A DNA stretch of 64,000 nt from Advenella mimigardefordensis DPN7. GTDB lineage: Bacteria > Pseudomonadota > Gammaproteobacteria > Burkholderiales > Burkholderiaceae_B. The notes below the pieces were generated by a model, which ran no database searches, had not been told where the DNA came from, and saw nothing but the letters and a program-made list of their open reading frames with translations. A program made the position numbers and the translations under genes. The stretch is from contig NZ_CP003915.1 of assembly GCF_000521505.1 (NCBI RefSeq), forward strand, positions 3,844,001 through 3,908,000, written 5' to 3'. The first letter of the stretch is position 1; each line of letters starts with the position of its first letter. Shown piece by piece: positions 2,463-36,373 of the stretch.

Positions 2463-3194
2463 TCAGGCGACCAATTCCAGTTCCTGTAGCGAAACATCAC
2501 TATTGACATAGTCGTTGTACAGTGCTGTTGTATACAACAGTCGCATCTGCGCACCGATTTCGCATATTTTCAGACAGCGCTGCTGGAGCTCGACGGTGTT
2601 GGCGTGTTCCAGCACAATCTGATAACCGCGCTCGCCATGAATTTCATCGGAAACGATATGCAGATCGAAAAATTCGACCTCCTCATCGGTGAAACCATAT
2701 TTTTCACGCAGTGTAGGGGCCTGCTTACGGTAGATCGAAGGCACTTGTGATTCCAATCCGACAACCAATCCGGCAACAGCAACAATAGGATCTTCTCTCA
2801 TTGCAACTGCATAACACCAGGATTGCAGTGCACGGGTGGTGGGCGACATGTTGTCAGGATTGACCACCCGTTCACGTGTCGTGCCGCATGCCTGTGCAAA
2901 ACGGATGAGCAAATCTGTGTGACGGTCCCCGCCGATTTCCTCTTCGTACATATTGGCCAGCAGAAAGTCTTTGGCTTCTGTATAGGTATCCGGAGTACGC
3001 GCGTATACATAAGCAAGATAATCGGCGAAGGGACCTACATAGTGGTAATGGTTCTCAGCCCAACGAGACATATGTTCACGACTGAGCTTGCCGGTTGCCC
3101 AGGCAATGCTGAAGGGAGAGGCATTTGCACTTTTGCCTTTGATAGCAGTTTCCAGTGCAGTCCGGAATTCGTCACGAGTCATAAGGTTTGCCAT
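2463..3194 (-). CDS. Heme-oxygenase-like diiron oxidase (HDO/PqqC/CADD superfamily)
   Basis: A 243-residue all-helical protein of the PqqC/TenA-like iron-containing redox superfamily. A complete diiron ligand set is visible: Glu85 (NMYEEEIGG), His92, Glu148 (GLESQ), His179, Asp183 and His186 (LHIVSDEIH), with spacings like those of CADD and related heme-oxygenase-like diiron oxidases. Known relatives cleave or hydroxylate amino acids, amines or fatty acids with O2. AAGGATC precedes the ATG. It is the first gene of the operon containing an aldehyde dehydrogenase and ferredoxin domain, directly downstream of a putative GntR operator. Fragmentation of an amine or amino acid to an aldehyde is a reasonable guess, not shown. 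Confidence 0.85.
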   Translation of the reverse strand: MANLMTRDEFRTALETAIKGKSANASPFSIAWATGKLSREHMSRWAENHYHYVGPFADYLAYVYARTPDTYTEAKDFLLANMYEEEIGGDRHTDLLIRFAQACGTTRERVVNPDNMSPTTRALQSWCYAVAMREDPIVAVAGLVVGLESQVPSIYRKQAPTLREKYGFTDEEVEFFDLHIVSDEIHGERGYQIVLEHANTVELQQRCLKICEIGAQMRLLYTTALYNDYVNSDVSLQELELVA

Positions 3195-3265
3195 TTCTAG
3201 ATCCTTTAAATAAGTACGCTCTGGAAAAGGACAGGGCGTGGTGGTTAAATCGACATTTATATAAA

Positions 3266-3283
3266 TTGTATACTATATACTAT
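3266..3283. promoter_or_regulatory. Putative GntR operator 1 (TTGTATACTATATACTAT)
   Basis: An A+T-rich site beginning TTGTATAC, about 75 bases upstream of the diiron oxidase start. It closely matches a site before the transporter and TauE genes and an inverted copy before the GntR gene. TTGTATAC-type sequences are typical of FadR/VanR-type (FCD) GntR targets. Binding is inferred from recurrence and position. Confidence 0.6.
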
Positions 3284-3418
3284 TCATAAAAACTAGGGAA
3301 AACCCGCGAATGTCGACGCATGAGTGTTAAGTAGCGGGGTTTAACGAGAGCAGGTGAAGTCAGTAATTTTTCAACCTGCCTTATGTTGAGGACGATGCGT
3401 ATCGTGGGCACAGATAAT

Positions 3419-4876
3419 TCAATACCCGAGCGCCTGACCGTCTTTTCTTTTGTCAGCCACGCCCAACAGGGAACCATCAGGCATGCGCATAACCGCATGG
3501 GCGCCGCCAAAATCGCTGCGCCCTGCCAGCTCGCCGGCTGACTTTGCGGGCTGCTGATACCCCGCATCGCGCAAGGCTTGCTCTACACAAACATCCATCC
3601 CCGCCTCAATCGCAAGTGTGTTGCCGGCTTCAAGTCGCCAGCGTGGCGTTGAAACGGAATCGGACAGAGCGTTGCCCCAACTGAGCACACGCGTCAAAAT
3701 CTGCACTTGCCCCTGTGGCTGCATCAGTCCGCCGACCACGCCCATTCCAAGATGAAAGCGTCCGTCCAATGTGCTCATTCCAGGCACAACGGTATGATAG
3801 GGTCGCTTGTTCGGTGCCGGACCATTGACATGTCCCGGCTCAGCGAACCCGAATCCCCTGTTCTGCAGGACAAATCCACCATCCGGTACGGCAATACCGC
3901 TACCAAAGCGCTTGAAAATACTGGACATGAGTGTGATGGCCAGGCCTTGCTCATCCACGATCACTGAGCATACCGTGTTACCTGACGGGTCCGCGACGGT
4001 CTGACTGGCTCGACGCATAGCATGTTCCGTTGCCTTCACCATAGACACATGTGCAAGGGGGTCCGCCGGGTCCAGGTTGTCTTCCTGTATCCGCTGCAAG
4101 GCATCCAGGATGGCTATCCCGTGTGTATTGGGTGGACACTGATGTACCATGAATCCATTGAACAACGTCTTGACCGGCTCGCAGAAATCACCGGTGTGTT
4201 TCTGAAAATCCGCAGCATCCAGCAGACCACCCGCTCGCTGAACCGCCTGTGCCGCCCTTTGCGCCACCCAGCTCTCATAGAACGCGTCAGCGCCTTCTTG
4301 AGCGATCATTTCCAGGACTCGGGCCAATTGCGGATTCGCAACATGGTCACCGGCTTGCGGACTGTTGCCGGCACGAAAAAGCTGCGCGCAAACCGGATCA
4401 CGCTTTAATACAAAATCAAAGATGGCCCATTCCTGCGCCGCCACAGCGGCCACGGCAAAGCCATCGCGCGCATAACCAATGGCGGGGTTGAAAAGACAGC
4501 GCCAGTCCAGCTTGCCATATCGCGCATGCAAATCCGCCCAGCCCCTGACTGCGCCTGGCGTTGTGACCGACCACGGGTGACGCTCCGGAATCCGGCGGCC
4601 GGGAAAATCATCCAATGCCGAAGGATCCATGGCGGCGGGTGCGCGCCCAGTACCGTTATAGCAAACAACCTGTCCATCTGGTAAACATAAAGTAGCCAGT
4701 AAATCCCCGCCAATACTGGTAGCCATGGGCTCCACAACACCCAGTACGGCATCGGCTGCGATCGCAGCATCAACCGCGCTGCCACCAGCCTGAAGCATCG
4801 CGTTTGCAGCGGCGGCCGCCAATGGGTTACCAGTGGCGATCATTGAGCGCGAGCCCGTGCATTGTTTCGCATTCAT
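3419..4876 (-). CDS. Gamma-glutamyltransferase-family Ntn-hydrolase
   Basis: A 485-residue member of the gamma-glutamyltransferase/acylase family, somewhat shorter than secreted GGTs (about 580 aa) and lacking an obvious signal peptide, so probably cytoplasmic (YwrD or acylase-like). The likely autoprocessing and catalytic Thr is Thr301 in SGNTVCSVIVDEQG. The large subunit begins GNPLAAAAANAMLQAGGSAVDAA, and the family GRAP and FKRFGSGIAVPDGGFVLQNRG segments are present. Such enzymes hydrolyse or transfer gamma-glutamyl or related acyl groups. The gene lies 8 bases after the transporter gene, so uptake and hydrolysis are probably coupled; the substrate is unknown. Confidence 0.85.
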   Translation of the reverse strand: MNAKQCTGSRSMIATGNPLAAAAANAMLQAGGSAVDAAIAADAVLGVVEPMATSIGGDLLATLCLPDGQVVCYNGTGRAPAAMDPSALDDFPGRRIPERHPWSVTTPGAVRGWADLHARYGKLDWRCLFNPAIGYARDGFAVAAVAAQEWAIFDFVLKRDPVCAQLFRAGNSPQAGDHVANPQLARVLEMIAQEGADAFYESWVAQRAAQAVQRAGGLLDAADFQKHTGDFCEPVKTLFNGFMVHQCPPNTHGIAILDALQRIQEDNLDPADPLAHVSMVKATEHAMRRASQTVADPSGNTVCSVIVDEQGLAITLMSSIFKRFGSGIAVPDGGFVLQNRGFGFAEPGHVNGPAPNKRPYHTVVPGMSTLDGRFHLGMGVVGGLMQPQGQVQILTRVLSWGNALSDSVSTPRWRLEAGNTLAIEAGMDVCVEQALRDAGYQQPAKSAGELAGRSDFGGAHAVMRMPDGSLLGVADKRKDGQALGY

Positions 4877-15429: not shown

Positions 15430-15879
15430 TCTTCTTGTTACCTATTTGATCGGTAGCTGCTATTTTATGCAAGTGCGAAGCATGCTGTCATACCTTGTGC
15501 GGAAGATAGAAGATCCCGGAATTGTTCTACGGGAACACCAACGTCTCATTTACAAAACGGACTTTCACGTGGCTTTATGTTAACCATAGCTCATAGTAAA
15601 TATCATAAAATTCACTTTCGGTGCCACGTGAAGCGCTTGAGGTTAAATAGAAAAAAATAGTACAAGCACTAGCCAGTTAACCTAACTTCGTTAATGATTT
15701 GAAGTCAGGCCAACTTTGACCTGACTTCTATCAGCAGCGCCCTGGCGTAGTGAAGCCAGCAAGCTGAATAAAAAAAATTCCTTGAGATGCTGTACTGACA
15801 ATTAATTGGCACGTTCCTTTTTACTGAAGGCGGCTGTCAATACAATTCCTCCAATTTTATTCTGAATCAGACAATTAAG
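15430..15879. other. A+T-rich gap with an inverted repeat at 15701-15728
   Basis: About 450 bases downstream of the RiPP operon. GAAGTCAGG (15701-15709) and CCTGACTTC (15720-15728) form a perfect 9-base stem with a 10-base loop; no T-run follows on either strand, so it is not a textbook terminator. It could mark the 3' end of the operon or a remnant insertion boundary. No gene is recognised. Confidence 0.5.
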
Positions 15880-17091
15880 TCACAGACGTCTTTCGATTAT
15901 CACTAGCAGGATGACTGAAATAGCGCCAATTAATCCAAAGCTCAATTGAACAAATGCTGTCGGAATCGAGTTCCCAAGCGCCCACCCTGCCAGCCAAATT
16001 GCTGCAATAGAAGCGATACGTCCGACGCTCTTGCCGATCATCATATACTGTGGCAACCGGTGGTCAGCGATTTTACGCGCGACCGTCTCAGCCAAGAGAG
16101 GTAAAAGAAGCGAATACAAAAATCCCAAAACAATGGTGCTGGCCATTATCGTGGCGGGATCATTACATTGACCGTTTATCACAACAGCAACAGAAATGAG
16201 GAAAAACATATTCCTTACAGTTCGAGGTGTTGCGTAATTTTCCAACTTGATAAGTTTCAACACCAAAATTGCCTGGACAAGCAAAAATATACTGTAGAGA
16301 ACAGAATAAGGAGGCGGAGAAAAATGCTCATACTTAGAAGATGACAGCAATAGAAATCCGATCGCGCCAATCGACGCATTTGCCAAAAACTGAAACAATA
16401 AAAACCAATTTTCCCACGACAACATCCTATCCAAATGAAGGCTTCGCTTTGTCTCTTCGGTTGTACCTTGACCTTGATTACAGCATTCAGATACTATTCT
16501 TTTTAGTATGTGCCACGGCGCATACAATGAACACAGGTAACTCAATATCAATAGTATCCAAAGAGTGCACTCAAGATATCGATTAGCAGTAACTACAAAA
16601 AATGGAGCAAGCGCCATACTTCCCCGTCCTAGTAAGTTACTAATCGAATTACTTCGTAGAAATGAAAAATTATTGTATCGGCAATTAAACAAATTCAATC
16701 TGACAGCAAGCGGCTGATCTACTATACTCAGAACCGTCCAAACACCATAGACAAAATAGTGGTCCGCCCTAAGCGCCGAATCGACCGAGATCAGGCTCAT
16801 GATCAAATATAAACTCAAAATAGCCAAGATGATACGCACCAATAATGAGATCATCGTTTGATTCTGCAATGAGACCGCTCGCATCCGTATCGCAATGATC
16901 GGTTGAACAATAACCTGCCCTATTAATGGTCCAGTAAACAGCAGCGATGCCAGTTCTAATCCAGTGGACTTGGCCGAGATAGACGTAATCAATACAATTA
17001 CAAACGCAGCAGGCAATGCCACGATTGAAATTGAAACTGATGAGAGAAATCCATGTACTTCAAAAGAATGGCCAGACTTCGTCCGATTCAT
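15880..17091 (-). CDS. MFS-like exporter of the RiPP operon
   Basis: 403 residues with 11-12 hydrophobic segments and a short charged central loop (QGQGTTEETKRSLHLDR) typical of a two-bundle MFS protein. The motifs are too diverged to name a subfamily. The start overlaps the YcaO gene end by 32 bases, so the two are translationally linked. Its position as last gene of a peptide-modification operon suggests export of the finished peptide or self-protection (inference). Codon use is A+T-rich like the rest of the locus. Confidence 0.75.
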   Translation of the reverse strand: MNRTKSGHSFEVHGFLSSVSISIVALPAAFVIVLITSISAKSTGLELASLLFTGPLIGQVIVQPIIAIRMRAVSLQNQTMISLLVRIILAILSLYLIMSLISVDSALRADHYFVYGVWTVLSIVDQPLAVRLNLFNCRYNNFSFLRSNSISNLLGRGSMALAPFFVVTANRYLECTLWILLILSYLCSLYAPWHILKRIVSECCNQGQGTTEETKRSLHLDRMLSWENWFLLFQFLANASIGAIGFLLLSSSKYEHFSPPPYSVLYSIFLLVQAILVLKLIKLENYATPRTVRNMFFLISVAVVINGQCNDPATIMASTIVLGFLYSLLLPLLAETVARKIADHRLPQYMMIGKSVGRIASIAAIWLAGWALGNSIPTAFVQLSFGLIGAISVILLVIIERRL

Positions 17092-18013
17092 TGGGTGGGC
17101 CTAAACTAATGTCATTTGCAGAATTACTCTGAGAACGTATACAAACCATATTTTTATCGGAGTATAGAACCGCATAATAGGGATGTAAATCGTCCAAAAT
17201 AGAGAAATATGATAGAGGTTGTTTTTTCGCGTACGTAATGAATTTGCTGTCATTCTCCATTCTAAATACAAATTCGTGTAGCTCCTTTTCTGTATATTTT
17301 CGCAATAGCCGATTCACTGATCTTTGACTCAATTTCTCACCGTTCTCTCTGCAGCGTGCCATTACCACACTATCCCTTATCATCTCGCATTCAGCCAATG
17401 CGTGCGCCGTTGCATCGACACCAGAACTCCTACAAGCAGATCCCGATGCAATGTATCCTAACTTGAAATCGACGTGAATCGCGAGTGCATACCGAATCGA
17501 ATATTTGTAAAATGGAGATTCCCATACTATTCTGTAATGAGCATCATCCATTGAATGGAATATCGGTTTTCCTAATTTTAATTTTCCATGCCACCAACAG
17601 TGAGTAATGTGGCGCTCATACATCTCTAACTCGCCATGCCTTTTTGCGCGATCAAGTGTTTCTCCCACAGCCAAACCCGTAGCGTTGAGAGCCTGATTAT
17701 TCGACTTCGTTCCGATCAGAAAGGAAACTCGAGCGGCCGTTCCTCGTTCTATATCTCTAAAATGACTGAGCACTTGGATGGGTTCCATCAATTGATCATT
17801 GTTATAGGCACAACGAGACCCGAAAAAGTGCTCAATACATTCGTAATATGCCGAAGTCTCTGCTATTCTTCTCTCCTTATGACTACCAAAGCCGAAGATA
17901 TAATGCTTCTTTCCATTTGAATCAGTAGTTCCAATTCCAGCCTTTGCGACCCAATAATTCTCATTGCAAATATTTATTCTGCTTATTGTTTTTATGTGAG
18001 GTCGAATATCCAT
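17060..18013 (-). CDS. YcaO-domain protein (ATP-dependent peptide backbone modification)
   Basis: 317 residues. Three YcaO nucleotide/metal-binding regions are visible: SAYYECIEH (about 54-62, Glu58 and Glu61), ATGLAVGETL with ELEMYERH (about 111-135), and AHALAECEMIRD (about 203-214, Glu208 and Glu210). YcaO proteins use ATP to activate a peptide amide, forming azolines, amidines or thioamides. No ThiF/E1-like partner or TfuA gene is nearby, so this is a stand-alone type. The C-terminus ends VWPFF rather than a clear PxPxP. It lies between the HExxH protein and the exporter and probably modifies the small peptide encoded upstream. Confidence 0.85.
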   Translation of the reverse strand: MDIRPHIKTISRINICNENYWVAKAGIGTTDSNGKKHYIFGFGSHKERRIAETSAYYECIEHFFGSRCAYNNDQLMEPIQVLSHFRDIERGTAARVSFLIGTKSNNQALNATGLAVGETLDRAKRHGELEMYERHITHCWWHGKLKLGKPIFHSMDDAHYRIVWESPFYKYSIRYALAIHVDFKLGYIASGSACRSSGVDATAHALAECEMIRDSVVMARCRENGEKLSQRSVNRLLRKYTEKELHEFVFRMENDSKFITYAKKQPLSYFSILDDLHPYYAVLYSDKNMVCIRSQSNSANDISLGPPNESDEVWPFF

Positions 18014-18043
18014 TTTTATTTAACCTGAACATGAAAAGCTACT

Positions 18044-19111
18044 TCAAGCTAAAGTAAGTTCTTCGCCTTTTCCCAGAAATCGGTGGCTACGTTTAATATT
18101 GAAATCGAAATTTTTCCAGTATCCCCTCTTTTCTGAGTTCCAGTATATTTCTTGAATTTCCTCTAACAGGATTTCCCCTTGTTTTGTGAGCATTGCGTAG
18201 CGTCCAATTTCAACTATCCCGTTCTTGAGTTCGATCAATTGCTGCGACAAATAAATCCCGATTTCCTCAGTGAAATCCGAATTACCCAATCGATCGAACA
18301 TTTGGACAATTCTGGATGTAACAAATGTCGCGTGGAACACTCCAATCATGGCTCGCGAATCACTTCTCAATGGTGATTTATAGATTTTCTCCCTATCGTT
18401 CAATACGATTGGATCGATGCTCATAACCGCATTCAAATATAAATGTGAAACCTCATGACAAATATGTTCAATATAGTAAAGTTGCCGGTCAATCCCAGGC
18501 CTGGGTAGACGAATGAACATGCAACCAAACATCCGAACGTCAGTCAGCCCCATGGTGACTCGCCCGGAAAACAATCGAATATGAGCGAGCAGTTGTGAAA
18601 TCTCGTCGTACATATCGCTGAACAGATTCTTGATTGTTCTCAATGCCGACTTTATTTCCACTTTCTCGTGATGTAGCTGCTCACTGTTGGTGATCGGCAT
18701 TAGCTCAGCCTGCCTATTTAAGTCTTCTTTGAGACTTAGCACTGCATCATCGATAATGAATTTTTCGCAATCAGAATCTTCGATTGAGCTTATTATTGGA
18801 TATACGTTTTCAACTGAACCGTTCCTTAGATTCATCAACTTATCGAGTGTTTGATTGACGCTCAAACCGTCTGAAGCACGCATCGCTCGCAGCAATTTAT
18901 CGTGAAGATAGAACAACTCTGGATTTAAAGAAGCCACGGATTGTATTGCAACGAGATGCTCGAGAGAAAAATCGGCTCTATTTAGCGTGGAAATTGCAGA
19001 TTTTTTTAGATGAATCAGACTATTTATTACTTTTTGATAAAAAAAATCTCTAGCTATCTTCGCACGGTCTCGACTAGGGTATGCGGACACTAATGGGGAT
19101 ATCCTGCTCAT
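18044..19111 (-). CDS. HExxH-motif putative peptide-modification protein
   Basis: 355 mostly helical residues with HEVSH (His219, Glu220, His223) and, 23 residues on, SPLRSDSRAMIGVFHATF (246-263, with Arg249, Asp251, His260). This second block matches the conserved SPWR-x-DpRP-x-x-G-x-lHg pattern of the HEXXH-domain family found beside RiPP precursors (TIGR04267 type). Family members fused to radical SAM enzymes have been reported as iron/alpha-ketoglutarate hydroxylases rather than proteases, so peptide hydroxylation is the leading guess. GGAG precedes the ATG. It is separated from the peptide gene by a strong hairpin. Confidence 0.8.
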   Translation of the reverse strand: MSRISPLVSAYPSRDRAKIARDFFYQKVINSLIHLKKSAISTLNRADFSLEHLVAIQSVASLNPELFYLHDKLLRAMRASDGLSVNQTLDKLMNLRNGSVENVYPIISSIEDSDCEKFIIDDAVLSLKEDLNRQAELMPITNSEQLHHEKVEIKSALRTIKNLFSDMYDEISQLLAHIRLFSGRVTMGLTDVRMFGCMFIRLPRPGIDRQLYYIEHICHEVSHLYLNAVMSIDPIVLNDREKIYKSPLRSDSRAMIGVFHATFVTSRIVQMFDRLGNSDFTEEIGIYLSQQLIELKNGIVEIGRYAMLTKQGEILLEEIQEIYWNSEKRGYWKNFDFNIKRSHRFLGKGEELTLA

Positions 19112-19131
19112 AAAATCGTCTCCGGAAGGTT

Positions 19132-19177
19132 GAGCACCGGATGTCTTTCGAACAGCGTAGCGGACATCCAGGTGCTC
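19132..19177 (-). promoter_or_regulatory. Strong hairpin between peptide gene and modification genes
   Basis: GAGCACCGGATGTC (19132-19145) pairs with GACATCCAGGTGCTC (19163-19177) over 14 base pairs with one bulged base and a 17-base loop. It starts about 33 bases after the peptide stop codon and ends 20 bases before the HExxH start. No U-run follows, so it is more likely a partial attenuator or mRNA-stabilising element that keeps peptide mRNA in excess over enzyme mRNA, as is common in bacteriocin operons. Confidence 0.8.
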
Positions 19178-19209
19178 GGTGAACGCTAAATGGGCTAACT
19201 AATAATAAC

Positions 19210-19302
19210 TTAAGGCGTCGTGCTGACGCTCAGTTGCAAAGTAGCTAGCGTGGAATCAAATATTGCTTCCTCATCAATTGTAAAAACCACTACGTTCTCC
19301 AT
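19210..19302 (-). CDS. Candidate RiPP precursor peptide, 30 aa
   Basis: A short gene with an excellent ribosome-binding site (AGGAGAG, 5 bases before ATG). The product has an acidic, hydrophobic N-terminal half beginning MENVVVFTIDEE, suited to a leader. The C-terminal half is Ser/Thr-rich, ends LQLSVSTTP, and contains three Ser and four Thr within the last 14 residues and no Cys or Lys. It is the first gene of the HExxH-YcaO-exporter operon. Lack of Cys argues against thiazoles; oxazole-type heterocycles, backbone amidine or thioamide, or side-chain hydroxylation are possible. The leader/core boundary cannot be set from sequence; no recognised Gly-Gly cleavage site is present. Confidence 0.72.
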   Translation of the reverse strand: MENVVVFTIDEEAIFDSTLATLQLSVSTTP

Positions 19303-19371
19303 GATTCTCTCCTGAAGATAAATTTAGAAATGGCATTTGCCTGACGAACCGCGGGGCCCTCAGACGGCTAC

Positions 19372-19413
19372 AGGATAATCAAGGTTCCAGAACATGTATA
19401 TGATGTAAATCAA
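19372..19413 (-). promoter_or_regulatory. Possible FNR/Anr-type site and promoter of the peptide operon
   Basis: On the minus strand, TTGATTTACATCAT (19413-19400) matches the FNR consensus TTGAT-N4-ATCAA at nine of ten fixed positions. A -10-like GATTAT/TTATCC lies 20-25 bases downstream, the distance expected for class II FNR activation. A TTGACT (19427-19422) just upstream could instead be a -35 box. It sits about 100 bases before the peptide start. Oxygen control is a hypothesis. Confidence 0.4.
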
Positions 19414-19571
19414 ATTGATATAGTCAATCTATCATCTGAATCACTGCGCGTCGGCCGTCACCGAATTTTTCCTTACAGATTCCAACATAATGGTTTTTTA
19501 ACCAGATTTTTTTCCAAAGTGCAAGTCACCAGTTCGCACATATTTAAATTTTGATCAGTCTGTCAAAACTG

Positions 19572-19619
19572 AAAAAAAGCCGGTAGCCTAATTGTCACAA
19601 GGTACATATCACTGGCTAC
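19572..19619 (-). terminator. Probable intrinsic terminator of the LysR gene
   Basis: On the minus strand, GTAGCC at the LysR stop codon pairs with GGCTAC (19588-19583) across a 25-base loop, followed by CGGC and seven T residues. The stem is short, so termination may be weak. It would insulate the peptide operon from LysR transcription. Confidence 0.45.
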
Positions 19620-20518
19620 TTACGCACCACTCCGCGTTTCGACAATCCCTCCAACATACCCTTCGCCTCACGCAAACTATCCACAATAAAATCCGCTACC
19701 GCCCGAACCCTCGGCACCTCAACACTATCATCATGCAAAATGAGATAGATATCCTGGCTTAGATACCCCTCTGGACCGTCAACCAGCACAAGCCCGGGCG
19801 CTTGATTTCCAACCAAGCAAGGCAAATACGCATAGCCAAGCCCCGCTTGAGCGGCCGCTACCTGGCTTTTTAGTGAACTCACCTTTACAGCGGGCATACG
19901 CCAATAACTGTGCGCCATAGCAGCCCTGGCGATTGGCAAATTTTTAAAATTTTCAGACCATCCGATAATCCCGAGCTCGCCTTCTTTGCTGTTGGAGCCA
20001 ACAGCTTCTGACAGGTAAAGCGCATGGCGAAGCGATCCCAGGGTCCGAACTTTGAACGGCCCTCGCTCCGGCATGGAAACACGCACAGCTAGATCTGCCT
20101 CTCGGCCATGCAAGGCGATAGGCTGAGCGTCGGTCTGAAATTCAATATTAATCAACGGGTAACGCGCAATAAAACTCGCTAGACGGGGTAATAAAATTAA
20201 ATTCGCAATGTTCTCGCTCGTAGCTACCCGAACGGTGCCCGTAGGCTGATCTGCAGCAGCCTCAAGTGATGAGGACAGCGTGTTAAACCCATTTTCAATG
20301 GGTACGCAAGAATCCAGAAGCGCTCTCCCCTCCTTTGTAAGGGAGTAGCCGGTAGGACTACGCGCGAAAAGCAATTGACCGAGTTCGAATTCTAGGTTTG
20401 CCAATCGTCTGGACAATGTCGCCGGGCTAACGCGCAACGCGTTTGCGCCGGCGGTAAGCGATCCGGCACGAGCCGTCGTAATAAAAAACCTTAAATTATC
20501 CCAACTTATTGTTCGCAT
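19616..20518 (-). CDS. LysR-family transcriptional regulator
   Basis: 300 residues. The N-terminal HTH is WDNLRFFITTARAGSLTAGANALRVSPATLSRRLANLEFELGQLLFARSPTGYSLT, followed by a substrate-binding domain of the small-regulator (DsdC/YafC or AaeR-like) type (GTVRVATSEN, LPRLASFIARYPLINIEF, AAAQAGLGYAYLPCLV). It is divergent from the AfsA-like operon and upstream of the peptide operon, so it could control either. A 10-base inverted repeat in the intergenic region next to its start is the likely binding site. Confidence 0.92.
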   Translation of the reverse strand: MRTISWDNLRFFITTARAGSLTAGANALRVSPATLSRRLANLEFELGQLLFARSPTGYSLTKEGRALLDSCVPIENGFNTLSSSLEAAADQPTGTVRVATSENIANLILLPRLASFIARYPLINIEFQTDAQPIALHGREADLAVRVSMPERGPFKVRTLGSLRHALYLSEAVGSNSKEGELGIIGWSENFKNLPIARAAMAHSYWRMPAVKVSSLKSQVAAAQAGLGYAYLPCLVGNQAPGLVLVDGPEGYLSQDIYLILHDDSVEVPRVRAVADFIVDSLREAKGMLEGLSKRGVVRK

Positions 20519-20600: not shown

Positions 20601-20856
20601 TAGAAATATCTTCAGTTGGTCAATAAAATTGTTGCGTAGTGCAGTTCGATTTTCAAAGTGACTAGGCTAAATAGCAATGAAGGGTGTTATGAAGTTACTA
20701 CACTGGCCCTTTGGCTCCGTCGCGTTCAGATAGGGAACTCCTTGCTGGGCGCTAAAAGGAGTATTCCTGCCTACTACGGCGGGATTATGAAGACTCATTC
20801 TGCGTCTATCAAGGTGATATAGCTGATCTTAATTGTATTGTCATGAAGGAAGTTAC

Positions 20857-21705
20857 ATGGAACATTCCGCAATCATTGTTGGAGACTGCTTCTCCGGTTA
20901 TAGCCAGAATAGTTTTGTCTACACAGTAAGCAGTTTTGCAAAAATGCTTCGTGGGGTATTAGGCGGCACAACGGACACAAGCCAGCTACCCAAAAAAATC
21001 CATTGGGGGCAAGGAGTTGGCACGCACGAACGTGGATATATAGCTGGGCTCTTATCAAAATTGAAGCTGGATATAGCTCCGCTAATCAGTGAGAATGTAA
21101 AGGAATTGGCGGGCCGAACATACGTCCACAAATGGAATCCACAAAACGTACTCGTTTCAATTCCCGAGCGAGAAAGCGACACTCGATTCGTATCTGACCT
21201 AGTCATAGATGCGCGAAATGAATTTTTGATTGATCACGCTACCGGTCAGCACGTTCAGGGAATGGTGTTACTTGAAGCCTGCCGTCAAATGTTCCTGGCA
21301 GTAACGGAAAAATATTTTATCGACAGCGATCTTCTCATCGAAACTTACTTTGTAATCAATAGCATGGGGATAAAGTACAAAGCATTCGTTTTCCCTATTG
21401 ATGCTCATGTTGTCTATATTCTAAAAAGTCTGAAACGCAAAGTGGGAGGCCGAATAGAAGTAGATTGCAGCATTTCGGTATTTCAAGCCGGGATGGAATG
21501 TTCCACTTGCGAAGTGGCTTACACAGTTTTCGATGCCCATCAACTTTCAACTCGAGAAAAGGAGATGGCTGGAAAAACAACACATTACTTCTTAAGCAGT
21601 GAGGTTGCTCCCGCTATTTGCGAAAACAAAAAATTAATGGCTATTCCCGTAGATATAACATCTAAAAGAGTAGCTCAATTTGAAGAAAAATCAAATTTAA
21701 TTTGA
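20857..21705 (+). CDS. AfsA-like hotdog protein (gamma-butyrolactone/butenolide biosynthesis type)
   Basis: 282 residues from the ATG at 20857, which has GAAGGAAG four bases upstream; a TTG eight codons earlier is rejected. Family marks are TYVHKWNPQNVLV (about 89-100) and DHATGQHVQGMVLLEACRQ (126-144), the hotdog motif of A-factor synthases, followed by a second hotdog half (about 205-260). In streptomycetes AfsA joins a beta-ketoacyl chain to dihydroxyacetone phosphate, giving a butenolide phosphate precursor. It leads an operon with a flavin monooxygenase, a KAS III homologue and a HAD phosphatase. The product here may be a signal or an antibiotic-like metabolite. AfsA-like proteins are uncommon in Gram-negatives. 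Confidence 0.82.
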   Translation: MEHSAIIVGDCFSGYSQNSFVYTVSSFAKMLRGVLGGTTDTSQLPKKIHWGQGVGTHERGYIAGLLSKLKLDIAPLISENVKELAGRTYVHKWNPQNVLVSIPERESDTRFVSDLVIDARNEFLIDHATGQHVQGMVLLEACRQMFLAVTEKYFIDSDLLIETYFVINSMGIKYKAFVFPIDAHVVYILKSLKRKVGGRIEVDCSISVFQAGMECSTCEVAYTVFDAHQLSTREKEMAGKTTHYFLSSEVAPAICENKKLMAIPVDITSKRVAQFEEKSNLI

Positions 21706-21719
21706 GCGAGGTTGGCCAA

Positions 21720-23114
21720 ATGAGCACAAAGATTGCTGTTGTAGGCGCGGGTCCTACAGGACTAACACTCGCACTCATGGCTCAGAAGCAAGGACATGAA
21801 GTAGTAATTTATGAAGCATCACAGAAACCCGATCCACGCCCTAGAGCGGTCATGGTTCATGCACGTGCCCTAGAAATACTTGCATCACTGGATCTCGCAA
21901 AAAACTTCATCAACCGTGGATTGATGACGCCCGGCATCGATTTCATTCGCTCTGACGGTGCTCGATTCACGATGGACTTTTCAAGTCTCGAAACATCATA
22001 TGCAGGCATCCTCAATATACCTCAACCAGAAATTGAAGAAATACTTGCAACTGCTTTTCTACAGCGCGGTGGAGTAATTCATCGCAATTCTGTCGTGACG
22101 GCATTTCAACAAAAAAGTCAAAGTGTCATGTTTGACGTTAGCCGGGACGGTACAACATCTCATATCGAAGCAAACTGGCTGTTTGGTTGCGATGGTGCTC
22201 ACTCTACGATTCGCAATTTAATCGGCGCAAGTTTCGACGGAGACACGATTGATCACGAATATATACTAGGTGAAGGAGAACGAAAAACTCCTGGTGCACC
22301 TGACGTTAGCAGTATGTTGATTTCGGAAACCGGAGTTGTCTCCTGGTTACCCTTTAAGGATGGAACAGTACGAGTAGCAGGGCCTGGAAGGGGTGTATCT
22401 TTAAATCAGATAGGACAGCATTCTACTGACTCGTCCGAGCGAGCGATTGAGCTTTTTTACGCAGAGCAAAACCAACTTATTTTCAGCCCACAGTACCTAA
22501 TCGGAAGAATTATACGCGCTGGTCTGTATCGAGTTCATAAGCGAATTGCATCAAACTGGGGGTATGGAAGAGTCTGGCTAGCTGGCGATGCAGCTCACTT
22601 GCATCCACCCGCCGGCGGACAGGCACTCAACCTAGGTCTATCTGACGCTGAAGCAATTGCTATGCGCCTAACTACTTCCTCCGGAATTGGCTTTGAGACC
22701 TATGAGCTAGAACGTCGCCCAATTGTAAAAGCTACCATCGAAGAGGTGTCAATGCTTCCATTAATTGCAGCAATGCGTGAAGCGAGTAGTGATACCGAAT
22801 TTGTAAAGATAGAAAAAGCACTTTCATTGAAGGCACATCGTCTTTCCCAAATTGACACTAATTTCCTGGCGGGCGATGCCGACTGTCTAGGGAATCGTGA
22901 TGATAAGGAATTAAAAACTGGGCGTAGGCTAAATGAGAAAATCGACCTTATGGATGCAATAAATGCACCACCTGGTTGGAAATTTGCCAGTGTTGGTGAA
23001 CACAATTATTGGGTTCACGCAGATCGACATGTGCGTAAAAAATCCCCGCAGAGTGACACAACATTCTCCGCTACCGGCATTCTCTCAAACAAGGAAACCG
23101 TCTCATGGGAATGA
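21720..23114 (+). CDS. Group A FAD-dependent monooxygenase (PHBH/aromatic polyketide hydroxylase type)
   Basis: 464 residues from the ATG at 21720 (GAGG 8 bases upstream; a TTG overlapping the previous stop is less likely). FAD motifs: VVGAGPTG (7-14), the DG motif FGCDGAHSTIR, and AGDAAHLHPPAGGQALNLGLSDA. The C-terminal domain resembles polyketide hydroxylases. Such enzymes hydroxylate aromatic rings or perform Baeyer-Villiger oxidation with NAD(P)H and O2. The start lies 14 bases after the AfsA-like stop, and the gene end overlaps the next gene by 10 bases, so it is tightly coupled within the operon. Substrate unknown. Confidence 0.9.
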   Translation: MSTKIAVVGAGPTGLTLALMAQKQGHEVVIYEASQKPDPRPRAVMVHARALEILASLDLAKNFINRGLMTPGIDFIRSDGARFTMDFSSLETSYAGILNIPQPEIEEILATAFLQRGGVIHRNSVVTAFQQKSQSVMFDVSRDGTTSHIEANWLFGCDGAHSTIRNLIGASFDGDTIDHEYILGEGERKTPGAPDVSSMLISETGVVSWLPFKDGTVRVAGPGRGVSLNQIGQHSTDSSERAIELFYAEQNQLIFSPQYLIGRIIRAGLYRVHKRIASNWGYGRVWLAGDAAHLHPPAGGQALNLGLSDAEAIAMRLTTSSGIGFETYELERRPIVKATIEEVSMLPLIAAMREASSDTEFVKIEKALSLKAHRLSQIDTNFLAGDADCLGNRDDKELKTGRRLNEKIDLMDAINAPPGWKFASVGEHNYWVHADRHVRKKSPQSDTTFSATGILSNKETVSWE

Positions 23115-24049
23115 TGCCTTTCTGGATTTCTGAGATTGCGTCGGTTATACCCGATGCTCGCATTGCTCCACCCACTGGAAGCGATGATCAGAATCGTAGC
23201 GGATATATTTCAGTCGCCGTTGAAAAGCAGCGAGTCGGCGGCGAGCTAGCTCACGACGCAGTAATCAACCTCGTTGCCACGGTAGGTTCGAAATCGGTGT
23301 CCCGTGTTGAGGCCATATTCCACGCCTCTGTCATAGATCAAGGAATGGGGGTTTTCTGGAATCCAGGTTACGCCCTTCAAAACCATGCAGGAGCCGAAAA
23401 GGCCAACGCACTGTCATTACGCCAGGGCTGCAATGGTCTTATGCTTGCTTTAATCCAAGCAGGCAGGTTGAGCCAGCACGGTAAACAGTCGCTTATTGCC
23501 GGAAGTGATTGTTTTGAAATTCCAGGGTTTAATCGCTTTGTATCAGACTATGGGATTATGTACGGCGATGGTGCTACGGCATGCATTGTGGGTAGTACAA
23601 CAGGCCGATTCAAAGTGATCGACATTGTCGAGATATCGTCTCCAAAATTGGCCCCGTTACATGATGGAAGAGGTTTTCCCACAGGCGACGTTAGATCGGC
23701 CAAGAGGCGCTATCTTGAGCGAAACGGGAAAGATTGTCTAACGCGATTTACCCGTAAGGCGATGGATCAATTAAGCAGCAAAGCCAAGGAATACAAAGTT
23801 GAACGCATATTATTTCCAAATCTTGGGAAAGAGTTGCTTGAAACAAACTACTATCCTGCGTTCGACTGCGCTGAAGAACGAAGTGCGGGTGAGCTGGGTA
23901 AAAGAATTGGCCATCTCGGCACTGCCGATCAATTGGTAGCACTTGACAGCCTTCACAGGTCCGGTGAAATTTGTGCTGGCAAACGACTTCTTCTCGTTGG
24001 AGCTGGCTCTGGATTCTCTTGGTCGGGAATTGTCGTGGAGGTAGCCTAA
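23105..24049 (+). CDS. Ketoacyl-ACP synthase III homologue with altered active site
   Basis: 314 residues of the thiolase fold. The nucleophile Cys109 is in LRQGCNGLML and YGDGATACIVG (about 153-163) matches KAS III. At the positions of the canonical His (HQAN) and Asn (GN) the protein reads LFPNLG (236-241) and IGHLGTADQ (268-276), so the usual Cys-His-Asn triad is incomplete and a His occupies the Asn region. Such changes occur in acyltransferase-like homologues such as CerJ relatives. It may load or transfer an acyl group rather than condense malonyl-ACP. It overlaps the HAD gene stop-to-start (TAATG). Confidence 0.85.
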   Translation: MGMMPFWISEIASVIPDARIAPPTGSDDQNRSGYISVAVEKQRVGGELAHDAVINLVATVGSKSVSRVEAIFHASVIDQGMGVFWNPGYALQNHAGAEKANALSLRQGCNGLMLALIQAGRLSQHGKQSLIAGSDCFEIPGFNRFVSDYGIMYGDGATACIVGSTTGRFKVIDIVEISSPKLAPLHDGRGFPTGDVRSAKRRYLERNGKDCLTRFTRKAMDQLSSKAKEYKVERILFPNLGKELLETNYYPAFDCAEERSAGELGKRIGHLGTADQLVALDSLHRSGEICAGKRLLLVGAGSGFSWSGIVVEVA

Positions 24050-24702
24050 TGTCCAAGATTGCATTCTTTGATGTCGATGAAACATTAATCCGCCCGAAAA
24101 GCATGTTTTCATTTCTAAGGTTCTATTTGGAAAATAAACGAGGTGATGATTCCAAAGTTTACGAGAATTTCTGGACAGAGATTATGAATATGACATCGTG
24201 TGGCGCGTCACGCTCGACAGTAAACAAACGTTATTACGAGTTTTGGAACGGTGAAAAATTGGCAGACGTTAATGACGCAGGACTTGCCTGGTTCGAAAGT
24301 GAGCGTCAAAACGACTATTTTTTCATACAACCAACGGTTAACGCTTTGAAATCTCACAAAGAAGCAGGCTGTCTGGTCGCTATGATTTCTGGATCATTTG
24401 AATCACCGCTCACTCCCATTGCCAATTATCTATGCGTTGACTACATCTTATGTAGCCAACCCGAAGTAATCGGCGGCACCATGACCGGGAACATTGAACA
24501 ACCCATGATCGGGATGAACAAGTCTCGCGCAGCACAAAAGCTAATGGAACAACACGATGCCTTGCCCCAAGAGTGTTTTGCATATGGCGATCATCTTTCT
24601 GACATTTATCTTCTTGAACAAGTTGGACACCCAAGAGTCGTAGCAAACGACCCTGAACTCATAACGGTTGCCACCGCAAGAAACTGGAAAATACTGCAAT
24701 GA
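24049..24702 (+). CDS. HAD-IB family phosphatase (SerB-like)
   Basis: 217 residues from the ATG at 24049, which overlaps the previous stop codon; a longer upstream reading with a different N-terminus is not supported. HAD motifs: FFDVDETL with Asp8 and Asp10, MISGSFE (motif II), NKSRAAQKL (motif III Lys) and FAYGDHLSDIYLL (motif IV). This subgroup removes phosphate from small metabolites. In an AfsA pathway a phosphatase is needed to dephosphorylate the butenolide phosphate, which fits this gene's place. It is coupled by ATGA to the exporter gene. Confidence 0.9.
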   Translation: MSKIAFFDVDETLIRPKSMFSFLRFYLENKRGDDSKVYENFWTEIMNMTSCGASRSTVNKRYYEFWNGEKLADVNDAGLAWFESERQNDYFFIQPTVNALKSHKEAGCLVAMISGSFESPLTPIANYLCVDYILCSQPEVIGGTMTGNIEQPMIGMNKSRAAQKLMEQHDALPQECFAYGDHLSDIYLLEQVGHPRVVANDPELITVATARNWKILQ

Positions 24703-25904
24703 CTGATATATCGACTACCGAAACTCAAGCTATCAGGACGAAAAATTCTGATTCTTTTTATGCTTTTCTCATCGTCGCCCTCGCGCCCATTGGTCAGATG
24801 GGTATCGATATCTTCACCCCTTCACTGCCACTCATCGCCAAAGAATTCATGTCCAGCCGCGAGACCGTTCAGTTAAGGGTGTCGCTCTATTTGGCTGCCT
24901 TTTCCATTGGCCAGCTGTTCTACGGTCCACTTTCCGACAGCATAGGGCGCCGTCGGGCGCTGGTACTGGGATTGGTATTATTCCTGACCGGTTCGCTCAT
25001 CGCCATTACCGCCTCCAATATCGAAGTTTTTATCACAGGTCGCGTTATTCAGGGCTTTGGTATTACATGTGCGTCTGTTTTGATGCGTGCAATTGCAACC
25101 GACATGTTCAAACCGCCACAACTGGCCAGCGTTTTAACTTATATGGTTGTCGGCTGGGGAATGGGGCCTATTATTGCACCGGTCATTGGCGCCGCCTTCC
25201 AGGAAACAATCGGGTGGAAATATTCATTAATTTTCCTGGCAGTGTACGCCGTCATTCTTCTGGCGCTTATTGCCTTTGTCATGAAGGAAACCAATCGCAA
25301 TCTGGTGGCTTTTAGTCTGACTAAGATTGCCTCAGGCGTGGGTGAGATTTATGGTAATTTTCGATTCACGCTCATCTTTCTTTCTATGGGTTTTTGTTAC
25401 GGGGTGATTTTGTGTTTTAACCTCGTCGGACCATTCGTCGTTCAGGAAGCGATGGGCTATAGCCCCGGTACATTCGGCGTGCTTGCCCTGGCGATGGGAC
25501 TCGTCTACTTTCTCGGGGTCCTATCGAATCGCGTCATGCCTGCGGCCATCACTCCAGCAAGAAAATTCTCCATTGCATCGCTTATTTGTGTCATCGCTGC
25601 CGCTATACAACTCTCTCTTGCGCTAGTAGCCGACCTAAACATTTGGGCTCTTGCCGTTCCTTTTGCTTTTGTCGTCTTTTTCTGCGGCGTGATGTATCCA
25701 AACCTCATGGCCATGGGCGTTTCAGCCTTTCCGCACATCGCGGGCCTCGCCAGTTCCCTGTTGGGCTTTTCACTGATGCTTCTCGCTGCAGCCATTATGT
25801 GGCTTTCCTCCTTGATGCAAGCCCACTCCCTGTTGCCATTCGCAACCCTCACCCTTGTACTCATGTGCGGCGTTTTTGTAATGATCCGCGCTATTCGTCC
25901 TTAA
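24699..25904 (+). CDS. Bcr/CflA-type MFS drug-resistance exporter
   Basis: 401 residues, 12 membrane helices. Helix 1 region GQMGIDIFTPSLPLIAKEF and motif A (YGPLSDSIGRRRAL), then RVIQGFGITCASVLMRAIATDMF, are characteristic of Bcr/CflA DHA1 transporters. Its start overlaps the HAD stop codon, implying co-expression with the AfsA-like operon and a role in exporting its product. Base composition rises here toward the chromosomal level, so it may be an older resident gene onto which the island was joined. Confidence 0.92.
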   Translation: MTDISTTETQAIRTKNSDSFYAFLIVALAPIGQMGIDIFTPSLPLIAKEFMSSRETVQLRVSLYLAAFSIGQLFYGPLSDSIGRRRALVLGLVLFLTGSLIAITASNIEVFITGRVIQGFGITCASVLMRAIATDMFKPPQLASVLTYMVVGWGMGPIIAPVIGAAFQETIGWKYSLIFLAVYAVILLALIAFVMKETNRNLVAFSLTKIASGVGEIYGNFRFTLIFLSMGFCYGVILCFNLVGPFVVQEAMGYSPGTFGVLALAMGLVYFLGVLSNRVMPAAITPARKFSIASLICVIAAAIQLSLALVADLNIWALAVPFAFVVFFCGVMYPNLMAMGVSAFPHIAGLASSLLGFSLMLLAAAIMWLSSLMQAHSLLPFATLTLVLMCGVFVMIRAIRP

Positions 25905-25924
25905 TACCCCTTACAGAGGCTCTT

Positions 25925-26995
25925 ATGTCAAATGTGAAAAATGCTGTACCAAATGCAAAAACCGCTCTTCCCACCCGCCGCGCAGGCAACAGCAGCTTAC
26001 TGGTCTCCATGATGGGCCTTGGCTGCATGGGCATGTCCGAGTTCTATGGCGAGAAAGACGATAACCAGTCTCGTGATTTACTCAATTACGCTGTCGATAA
26101 AGGGGTTCGCTTCTTTGATACCGCAGATGTTTACGGCTATGGCCATAACGAAATATTGGTCGGCAGCGTACTTCGGAATCATCCGAAGCGCAGCGACATT
26201 GTTCTCGCCACCAAGGGTGGTATCGTTCGGGATGATAATGACAGCACTCGCCGGGGTGTGAATACCTCTCCTGAGTATCTACAGGCCGCCATTGAACGCT
26301 CACTTAGCCGCCTGGAAACAAAGATTGATCTTTATTATTTACATCGTGTAGAGGACGATGGCGCACGGATAGAAGAAAGTATGTCGGCCCTGGCGGATCA
26401 GCTGCTTGCCGGACATATCGGCGCGGTTGGGCTGAGCGAGGTTTCAGAGCAGACCATTCGGCGCGCCCACGCCGCCCTGCTTCAAGCAACGGACGGAAAA
26501 TATGGGCTTGCGGCCATCCAGACAGAGTTTTCATTGATGACGCGGCATATTGAAGCTAACGGTGTCGATCAGGCATGCCGCGAGCTGGGTATTCTGCTGG
26601 TAGCATACTCGCCGATTTGCCGTGGATTGTTAACTGCCCCTTCCTTCAATCCAGAAGCGCTTTCAGAGTCAGATTTCCGCCGTAATCTGCCCCGATTCAC
26701 CGGAGACAATCTTAAGCATAATCTTCAGTTGGTCGAGGTTCTGGCAACGGCGGCTAAGAACGAGGGCCTGACGCCTGCGCAGGTGGCGCTCGCCTGGGTA
26801 ATGGCGCAGGGCAATCATGTAGTGCCTATACCGGGTACGCGTAGCAAGGCGCGTCTTGATGAGAATATTGCTGCATGCGAGGCTAAACTCAGTCCAGAGA
26901 CAATGGCATTGCTGGCAGGGGCGTTCGCACCACAAGCAGTGGCTGGGTTGCGCTATACGCCGGCTGCGATGCAGGCTTATGGGCTTTCCAGCTAA
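25925..26995 (+). CDS. Aldo/keto reductase
   Basis: 356 residues from the ATG at 25925, 20 bases after the exporter stop. Family marks: MMGLGCMGMSEFYG, FFDTADVYGYGHNE (catalytic Asp and Tyr), a Lys in VLATKGG, DLYYLHRVED, and the cofactor region VVPIPGTRSKARLDEN. It is a YajO/Tas-type soluble NADPH-dependent carbonyl reductase. Same strand and near the AfsA-like operon, so it could supply a reduction step (in streptomycetes a reductase acts after AfsA), but this family is common and general. Confidence 0.92.
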   Translation: MSNVKNAVPNAKTALPTRRAGNSSLLVSMMGLGCMGMSEFYGEKDDNQSRDLLNYAVDKGVRFFDTADVYGYGHNEILVGSVLRNHPKRSDIVLATKGGIVRDDNDSTRRGVNTSPEYLQAAIERSLSRLETKIDLYYLHRVEDDGARIEESMSALADQLLAGHIGAVGLSEVSEQTIRRAHAALLQATDGKYGLAAIQTEFSLMTRHIEANGVDQACRELGILLVAYSPICRGLLTAPSFNPEALSESDFRRNLPRFTGDNLKHNLQLVEVLATAAKNEGLTPAQVALAWVMAQGNHVVPIPGTRSKARLDENIAACEAKLSPETMALLAGAFAPQAVAGLRYTPAAMQAYGLSS

Positions 26996-35356: not shown

Positions 35357-35854
35357 ATGGCGCGGTACCTTGGTGTGTATACCGACAGATTCGTGGGGAC
35401 AGCCACCTATACCCTCACAAAAAACGAAACAAAGTCGGTCAAAAATTCGTCCACCAATATATTCAAGTCCAGTTTTGATCTGACATCAAGCGCATATATC
35501 AACGTGAATGGCTCGTTACTGCTGGAGGTCTCGGCCCTGGGATACGACCTGCACTTTCATAAGCAGACAGACGATGCGACCTTTAATGCGACGTTGATGG
35601 GGTTGAATTTAAACCTTTTCGGCGCTTTCGGGCTGAGTACATCAAATACGCACGCGCTGGGCAGGGTGGTAACCAGCCACGGGTATTTGCTCTGGTCGAA
35701 CGTCGCGGTCTTTAAGGTGTTGTGGAGTAAAGTCACTCAGACGTCAGGTGGCAGATTAAAGCGTAATACGAAGGATGAAGTTGAATTTGCTGCAGTGCGA
35801 TATCTGAGAACAAAGCAGGCGATCGAAATGTCTGGTCGCGCCAATACAAGTTAA
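35357..35854 (+). CDS. Unknown protein, first of three related T6SS-island proteins
   Basis: 165 residues starting MARYLGVYTDRFVG. No known domain. A central hydrophobic stretch (GLNLNLFGAFGLS, LLWSNVAVFKVLW) could be membrane-inserting or a packed beta structure; the C-terminus is basic. It shares with the next two genes a start of the form MA(R/K)-aromatic-L-x3-T and a Thr/Asn/Tyr-rich N-terminal third. Its place between the PAAR-like and DUF2169 genes points to T6SS cargo or cargo assembly. Confidence 0.75.
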   Translation: MARYLGVYTDRFVGTATYTLTKNETKSVKNSSTNIFKSSFDLTSSAYINVNGSLLLEVSALGYDLHFHKQTDDATFNATLMGLNLNLFGAFGLSTSNTHALGRVVTSHGYLLWSNVAVFKVLWSKVTQTSGGRLKRNTKDEVEFAAVRYLRTKQAIEMSGRANTS

Positions 35855-35863
35855 GGTGGCAGA

Positions 35864-36367
35864 ATGGCAAAGTACTTAAAAACATTTACCAACTTCTATG
35901 ATGGCCCCGTTACATCAACCTACAACAACACCGAATACAATAATGTAAGCGGTGCCACGAATTATACTTATACGAACGGGTTAACCATCAACGCGGCAGG
36001 CCAAACGGTTGGAAGAATATGCCCGATTCTGCATTACAGCGAGAATCGCAAATTAACCGTCCACGATGGCCGGGTATCGCTGCTGTTCGGTCAAATTGGG
36101 GCTGCTGGCGGCAATTACCAGTTAAATTGGGGCATTAATATTGCTGCATCCCTCACCTACAAAACCGAAACTGCGCTCAGCTACAACCTGTTTTCCGTCC
36201 TGTTTTTTAATCCGTCCAGCGTCAAACTGGTCCATAGTAATTCGGAAAAAGGAAAAAATTGGAGAACATTCAAAGTGTATCGCGTCAGGAAAGGTCAGGA
36301 AGACTATGTGAAAAAAGTTCAACGTAAAAGCGTTAACTTCCACGGTCTGACGTTCAGGGGGTTTTGA
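35864..36367 (+). CDS. Unknown protein, second of three related T6SS-island proteins
   Basis: 167 residues starting MAKYLKTFTNFYDGPVTSTYN, 9 bases after the previous gene. The N-terminal region is Asn/Tyr/Thr-rich; there is a Gly/Leu-rich middle (VSLLFGQIGAAGGNYQLNWGINIAASL) and a basic C-terminus (KVYRVRKGQEDYVKKVQRKS). Tandem arrangement and a shared N-terminal pattern indicate duplication followed by strong divergence. Function unknown. Confidence 0.75.
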   Translation: MAKYLKTFTNFYDGPVTSTYNNTEYNNVSGATNYTYTNGLTINAAGQTVGRICPILHYSENRKLTVHDGRVSLLFGQIGAAGGNYQLNWGINIAASLTYKTETALSYNLFSVLFFNPSSVKLVHSNSEKGKNWRTFKVYRVRKGQEDYVKKVQRKSVNFHGLTFRGF

Positions 36368-36373
36368 AGCAAA

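Follow-up and report, generated by a model that had tools for sequence, protein, structure and literature searches.

A candidate RiPP cassette in Advenella mimigardefordensis that pairs an HExxH-type hydroxylase with a stand-alone YcaO protein

Closest described systems

Beta-hydroxylation of precursors of ribosomally synthesized and posttranslationally modified peptides (RiPPs) by HExxH enzymes, which use alpha-ketoglutarate (aKG) and iron, entered the literature between 2024 and 2026 (PMC12636437, PMC13060819, PMC12707348). According to these reports, PflC and PosC hydroxylate glutamine and cleave the backbone, PesO generates 3-hydroxyproline, and BipH hydroxylates an intermediate of biphenomycin (PMC12636437; PMC13060819; PMC12707348). 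The subject of this article is a four-gene cassette in a 64,000-nucleotide stretch of Advenella mimigardefordensis DPN7 (contig NZ_CP003915.1, positions 3,844,001 to 3,908,000; hereafter "the window," to which all unassigned coordinates refer) that encodes a protein of this family next to a stand-alone YcaO protein. In our judgment, this is probably a real if uncommon RiPP cassette, whose HExxH enzyme beta-hydroxylates, and whose YcaO protein modifies the backbone amides of, one and the same short peptide.

How does the cassette compare with what has been described? The clusters of ChlH/ChlBH, BpmH/BipH, PflC/PosC, and PesO share with it the TIGR04267 family, the HE..H and SPxRxDxR blocks, and, in the cases consulted, a small precursor and transporter encoded in the cluster. 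Those clusters, however, combine the HExxH enzyme with radical SAM, MNIO, nitroreductase, or AS-like enzymes, whereas this cassette combines it with a stand-alone YcaO. Another parallel comes from Escherichia coli, whose stand-alone YcaO, without TfuA or a RiPP recognition element (RRE), is described as thioamidating the ribosomal protein uL16 next to a beta-hydroxylated arginine (PMC13063428). There too an aKG hydroxylase, RoxA, and a stand-alone YcaO act on neighboring residues, but the substrate is a folded ribosomal protein encoded elsewhere, and E. coli YcaO has, in addition, a TPR domain some 150 residues long (PMC13063428). The std cluster of Streptomyces thermodiastaticus likewise combines a YcaO, a hydroxylating oxidative enzyme, and a major facilitator superfamily (MFS) permease around one precursor; it differs in having TfuA, of which the cassette has none, an oxygenase of the MNIO type, and an additional peptidase-carbamoyltransferase. 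The amidine peptides of the streptamidine family have a stand-alone YcaO and precursors of 31 to 89 residues that are not classically rich in Ser, Thr, or Cys, but they come from Actinobacteria and six Firmicutes and have other partner genes; the paper on them does not mention HExxH (PMC8442711).

No HExxH enzyme paired with a stand-alone YcaO appeared among the papers listed by full-text searches of an open-licence library or in passages of PMC8442711, PMC13174530, PMC12452194, PMC4603692, and PMC13252029; the pair may have been published elsewhere. Neither enzyme family is new, nor is the arrangement of precursor, modifying enzymes, and exporter. The novelty lies in the combination, which makes the cassette a candidate for a modified peptide of a new type.

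The four-gene cassette

The features of the cassette and its upstream region are as follows.

15835..19379, no strand: extent of the cassette, the block in common with Advenella sp. S44 (single blastn match, 3551 columns, 79.8%)
15880..17091, minus strand: MFS-like membrane protein, proposed exporter, 403 residues (hydropathy; homologue in an Oligoflexia locus)
17060..18013, minus strand: stand-alone, divergent YcaO protein, 317 residues (PF02624, 37.2 bits against a cut-off of 25.7)
18044..19111, minus strand: putative peptide beta-hydroxylase of the aKG-HExxH type, 355 residues (TIGR04267, 59.4 bits against a cut-off of 40)
18353..18376, minus strand: SPLRSDSR block, residues 246-253 (S246, P247, R249, D251, and R253 invariant in 14 homologues)
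18443..18457, minus strand: HEVSH motif, residues 219-223 (H219, E220, S222, and H223 invariant in 14 homologues)
19132..19177, minus strand: hairpin of 14 pairs between the peptide and HExxH genes (folding z-scores against shuffles)
19210..19302, minus strand: proposed precursor peptide, MENVVVFTIDEEAIFDSTLATLQLSVSTTP, 30 codons (27/30 residues identical in S44)
19309..19313, minus strand: Shine-Dalgarno sequence AGGAG, six bases 5' of the ATG and kept in S44
19401..19413, minus strand: FNR/Anr-box-like site, TTGATTTACATCA, candidate regulatory element (sequence match)

The four open reading frames (ORFs) follow one another on the minus strand, from the 30-codon ORF through the HExxH and YcaO genes to the membrane protein (19302-15880). 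The extent of the cassette comes from a blastn comparison of the window with 18,072 bases of Advenella sp. S44; the single block that they share holds these four ORFs and nothing else noteworthy, and homology ends just beyond them. All four are under purifying selection between the two strains, with ratios of nonsynonymous to synonymous rates (dN/dS) of 0.14, 0.09, 0.17, and 0.20 for peptide, HExxH protein, YcaO, and membrane protein, respectively. The G+C content of the stretch from the first gene to the last (15880-19302) is 41.5%, compared with 51.3% for the window. A LysR gene at 19616-20518 lies outside the block and was rejected as a member of the unit. None of the four proteins was matched by PADLOC, and scans of the DNA for promoters (12 found, 10.1 expected) and terminators (3 found, 3.4 expected) were uninformative.

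The peptide ORF is the smallest of these genes, and its coding nature deserves particular attention. It differs between window and S44 by 7.0 synonymous and 4.0 nonsynonymous changes (P = 0.005 under neutrality by the method of Nei and Gojobori) and is under purifying selection. When the 505-nt region was simulated 3000 times with a Markov model, an ATG ORF of at least 30 codons led by a Shine-Dalgarno sequence arose in 57 replicates. Eight of the 30 residues are Ser or Thr, and none is Cys. The hairpin lies 3' of the stop codon and is kept in S44; a hairpin of different sequence occupies the equivalent place in the Oligoflexia locus (L006, described below). Their z-scores are -1.89 (window), -2.41 (S44), and -1.70 (L006), with 9, 2, and 9 of 200 shuffles, respectively, folding equally well. 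A simple terminator was rejected because no T-run follows the hairpin; it is possibly an attenuator or an mRNA-stabilizing element.

By its family, the HExxH protein is most likely an aKG/iron peptide hydroxylase. Its profile matches the Protein Data Bank (PDB) entries 8s5f (ChlH) at 1.6e-6 and 22nu at 8.3e-9; the SPLRSDSR block aligns with SPWREDLR of ChlH, as the HE..H block does with its counterpart in 8s5f. Its dN between window and S44 is 0.084.

The YcaO protein evolves faster (dN 0.144), and its genome has no second match to PF02624. Residues E58, E61, E130, E133, and R134, candidates for ATP binding, are invariant in the three relatives, but the usual SNG motif reads ATG in an alignment with LynD. 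Azoline-forming cyclodehydratases of the TIGR03604 family carry a C-terminal PxPxP motif. This motif is not present in the window protein, which ends LGPPNESDEVWPFF, nor in the Oligoflexia YcaO, which ends ILDPYC, and the shared block encodes neither a C protein nor an E1-like or ocin-ThiF leader-binding partner. With the TIGR03604 score also below its cut-off, membership in the linear azole-containing (LAP/TOMM) peptides was rejected. So was membership in the YcaO-TfuA thioamide RiPPs; no TfuA gene lies beside the YcaO in the shared block, the remainder of the genome not having been searched for TfuA.

The membrane protein gene and the YcaO gene have 32 nt in common. Eight hydropathy segments exceed the threshold, and no Pfam or NCBIfam model scores above its cut-off, so that its MFS-like nature and exporter role are our own reading.

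A sequence-only reading of this DNA had proposed a compact RiPP-type locus, and most of its description stands. The four same-strand genes lie where it placed them; the 30-residue peptide does have a strong ribosome-binding site; the HExxH motif and the SPLR-x-D-x-R block are present with their key residues conserved; the YcaO exceeds its family cut-off; and ThiF-like, TfuA, LanB, and radical SAM genes are indeed lacking from the S44-shared block. Its MFS-like exporter overlapping the YcaO gene holds up as to the overlap, but the MFS assignment depends on hydropathy, with no convincing model match.

Copies and relatives

Where else does the cassette occur? Intact copies are found in 2 of 10 Advenella genomes, the window and S44. 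A search of 240 genomes of the family with the HExxH profile returned those two copies and one distant relative only. S44 carries the cassette at a different genomic site: the window has LysR upstream, whereas S44 has a 1943-residue DUF4011/helicase protein downstream and a transposase pair, read by eye as IS3-type, upstream. The S44 copy sits in an accessory-gene region (L028 1965-7796 and 13505-14764), between that protein, which also matches MTES_1575, and an ATP-grasp protein beyond the transposases. A third Advenella genome (G003) retains a broken remnant in which 168 nt of the YcaO/membrane protein junction, comprising the start of the membrane protein and the final YcaO residues (L071 4515-4682), lie near about 100 nt from upstream of the peptide (4770-4873), the genes between being missing. 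Given the different site and flanks in S44, the G003 remnant, and the sporadic presence, we conclude that the four genes move and are lost together.

Outside Advenella, a pattern-based scan covering genomes of 84,980 species gave 44 stretches, 2 of which were confirmed by the HExxH profile: S44 and a metagenome-assembled genome of the Oligoflexia (L006). The Oligoflexia HExxH protein (330 residues, TIGR04267 66.4 bits) is 30% identical to that of the window. Its gene is overlapped by a YcaO gene, the product of which shows 32% identity, and after the YcaO, on the opposite strand, comes a membrane protein with 24% identity to the window protein (BLASTP 2e-10 in a single comparison). In front of the enzymes is a Shine-Dalgarno-led 40-codon ORF, MKDAKKTKRQQSKSSKKIFSPIKDKLLDTAMSTITYDVTG, which aligns without gaps with the peptides of Advenella; scores as high were reached by 58 of 5000 shuffles in the comparison with the window peptide and by 29 of 5000 in that with the S44 peptide. 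The evidence for recurrence is good for the three proteins and moderate for the peptide. Some 7 kb away from this cassette, L006 encodes a second, distinct YcaO of 312 residues (3060-3998, minus strand).

Genome neighborhoods with a peptide, an HExxH protein, and a YcaO, which the sequence-only reading had suggested searching for, are therefore found in S44 and the Oligoflexia genome. In both, a Shine-Dalgarno-led short ORF precedes the enzymes, which runs counter to the outcome that it named as fatal, homologues never accompanied by a short peptide gene.

Close relatives of the YcaO are few. A word-based search of 5.8 billion proteins, with the three YcaOs as a profile, returned only these three from 7896 candidates (E <= 0.1), and tblastn of plasmids with the YcaO gave no match at 1e-5. 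The exact-pattern genome scan and the YcaO search by shared five-residue words can overlook relatives, and one such search missed the Oligoflexia YcaO because of its strict pattern or word requirement. Nearer relatives of the HExxH protein (38-47% identity) come from Marinomonas, Rhizobium, and Ochrobactrum, among other sources; HExxH relatives are encoded by, for instance, Rhizobium sp. 2YAF20, Ochrobactrum sp. MYb29 and EDr1-4, and Marinomonas primoryensis. No near relative was present in 289 genomes of the class (best other match 190 bits, from a genome that has no YcaO) or in 347 genomes of the order (best 78 bits). Among viral contigs, 0 of 22 pattern stretches were confirmed by the HExxH profile and 0 of 82 by the YcaO profile.

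Two more distant loci are instructive. A 7.2-kb contig of genome G056 (L027, 574-7027) resembles the cassette in encoding a short ORF (48 codons), HExxH, MFS, and YcaO proteins; it differs in having a fuller YcaO (TIGR03604 124 bits, still below the cut-off), a ThiF/E1-like partner, and a dissimilar peptide. It also encodes a protein labeled JmjC/cupin-like by reading, with no family match. A Pantoea agglomerans plasmid (NZ_CP068441.1, L040 6497-8743) carries a Shine-Dalgarno-led 23-codon ORF, an HExxH gene (TIGR04267 91.8 bits), and an MFS transporter gene, with no annotated YcaO within 7 kb, and is possibly an HExxH-only minimal system. The Pantoea HExxH/MFS pair was rejected as kin of the cassette, since the MFS proteins do not match (E 0.58). 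Peptides from Pantoea, Xenorhabdus, and G056 are unlike the Advenella peptide, with 4598, 3893, and 4535 of 5000 shuffles scoring as high. In a scan of six chosen regions for Shine-Dalgarno-led ORFs, five had one; L027 did not, its 48-codon ORF being without such a sequence.

Proposed working of the cassette

What might the cassette do? In our proposal, which extends to the substrate, the division into leader and core, the types of reaction and their order, export, and role, the 30-residue peptide would be the substrate, recognized through its N-terminal half and modified in its Ser/Thr-rich end, LATLQLSVSTTP. The HExxH enzyme would add hydroxyl groups to the beta-carbons of one or more residues, and the YcaO would activate backbone amides with ATP. 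A host protease may trim the leader, and the MFS-like protein would export the product and perhaps protect the producer. The likeliest role would be competition with other bacteria.

The YcaO chemistry admits several guesses. Formation of (methyl)oxazolines at Ser or Thr comes first, a tentative choice that might well be wrong. Thioamidation with sulfur from the host is a second guess, and an unlikely one; amidine formation, the third, is less likely still. This ranking reflects the lack of Cys in the peptide, the lack of TfuA in the cassette, and the case of uL16 thioamidation. A more daring idea, which we hold to be improbable, is that the HExxH enzyme beta-hydroxylates residues other than Ser and Thr (for example, Leu, Gln, or Asp), at which the YcaO would then close 5-substituted oxazolines or thioamidate the adjoining amide.

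The sequence-only reading had gone further and inferred a new class of modified peptide. It was right about a RiPP-type cassette and about the families to which its enzymes belong, and part of the chemistry can be predicted because HExxH proteins of this family have been reported to act on RiPP precursors as aKG/iron beta-hydroxylases; the class itself is an extrapolation. Its suggested assay, the search for mass shifts upon expression, would be ambiguous because a gain of about 16 Da would result from hydroxylation and from thioamidation alike.

Weighing the alternatives

Several observations weigh against a peptide-modifying cassette. The YcaO scores far below the cut-off of the azoline-forming TIGR03604 (SagD) family (31.6 versus 219.25 bits), and its best PDB profile match is weak (E 0.0086). 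The peptide matches no family among Pfam or NCBIfam models, has no obvious border between leader and core, and shows only moderate similarity across bacterial groups; neither a protease nor an RRE was recognized in the cassette. A YcaO lies within 10 kb in just 3 of 16 genomes with an HExxH relative (S44, the Oligoflexia genome, and G056), a check that covered genomes apart from 13 of the order search, G1102, and three of six plasmid records (Streptomyces, Embleya, and Xenorhabdus TH1). In a 24-row tree the YcaO-linked HExxH proteins are not grouped, three changes being needed, and 71 of 500 shuffles group the YcaO label as well. This tree is unsure because of long branches, that of Oligoflexia among them, and many rows marked as lacking YcaO have an unread neighborhood. 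The pairing may have had several origins, may have been lost, or may sit unseen in relatives. Might the YcaO then be a passenger or a binding protein, with only the HExxH enzyme acting on the peptide? Its faster evolution and the Pantoea plasmid are in keeping with this, but the gene is under purifying selection and has been kept beside HExxH in Oligoflexia at 32% identity, so we consider the idea very improbable. Even less credible is a decaying, nonfunctional island: the low G+C content, the presence in so few Advenella genomes, and the broken remnant in a third would suit it, yet four ORFs remain open in both the window and S44 under dN/dS of 0.09-0.20, and the HExxH motifs are intact.

It is also conceivable, though in our view quite doubtful, that the short ORF encodes a leader peptide which, together with its hairpin, regulates enzyme expression, and that the substrate of the enzymes is a cellular protein, as uL16 is for YcaO and RoxA of E. 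coli (RoxA is not known to be an HExxH protein). A hairpin does lie directly 3' of the ORF in all three loci, and in E. coli an aKG hydroxylase and a stand-alone YcaO do act on neighboring residues of uL16. Attenuator peptides, however, often contain a run of one codon, whereas this peptide has no such run and is conserved at the amino acid level. The window YcaO is, moreover, small and divergent, S44 encodes an additional YcaO in a 769-residue frame, and an exporter travels with the unit. Characterized HExxH enzymes, in the reports cited above, modify precursors encoded alongside them. Granting that a modified peptide is made, it could be a metal-binding, redox-related, or signaling molecule rather than a killer, perhaps made when oxygen is scarce, a prospect that we rate as unlikely but the most serious of those considered here. 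No immunity gene was recognized in the unit, and the FNR/Anr-like site lies within a 22-nt stretch (19395-19416) that is identical in the G003 remnant. The window, though, holds 3 such matches against 0.87 expected, a number reached by 8 of 100 shuffles and thus near chance; the S44 block lacks the site, its homology stopping at 19379; and the HExxH reaction itself requires oxygen. Sporadic presence, different sites, and loss, all seen here, are typical of competition genes. A RiPP cassette with a role in competition is the reading that we prefer.

Other features of the window

Two further regions of the window are of note. At 20833-26995, genes for an AfsA-type hotdog protein, an FAD monooxygenase, a KASIII-like protein, a HAD protein, and an aldo/keto reductase lie in series, possibly forming a small butyrolactone-like pathway; G003 is without the portion at 20607-24670. 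At 35357-36871, three successive ORFs of 165, 167, and 165 residues, with starts that look similar by eye, precede an ORF of 882 residues and are probably paralogues.

Significance

That aKG-HExxH enzymes serve as oxygenases in RiPP pathways has been recognized only lately, and to many stand-alone YcaO proteins no reaction has been assigned. Within 3.5 kb, four genes and a presumed 30-residue substrate offer a very small system for asking how a YcaO without a recognizable RRE, E1-like protein, or TfuA finds and alters a peptide. The cassette also allows the cooperation of a YcaO with a beta-hydroxylase to be addressed, and a single expression step in E. coli could cover the whole unit. Should the hydroxyl group installed by the HExxH enzyme feed the YcaO reaction, heterocyclization would be freed from encoded Ser, Thr, and Cys residues, and the enzyme pair would define a RiPP class.

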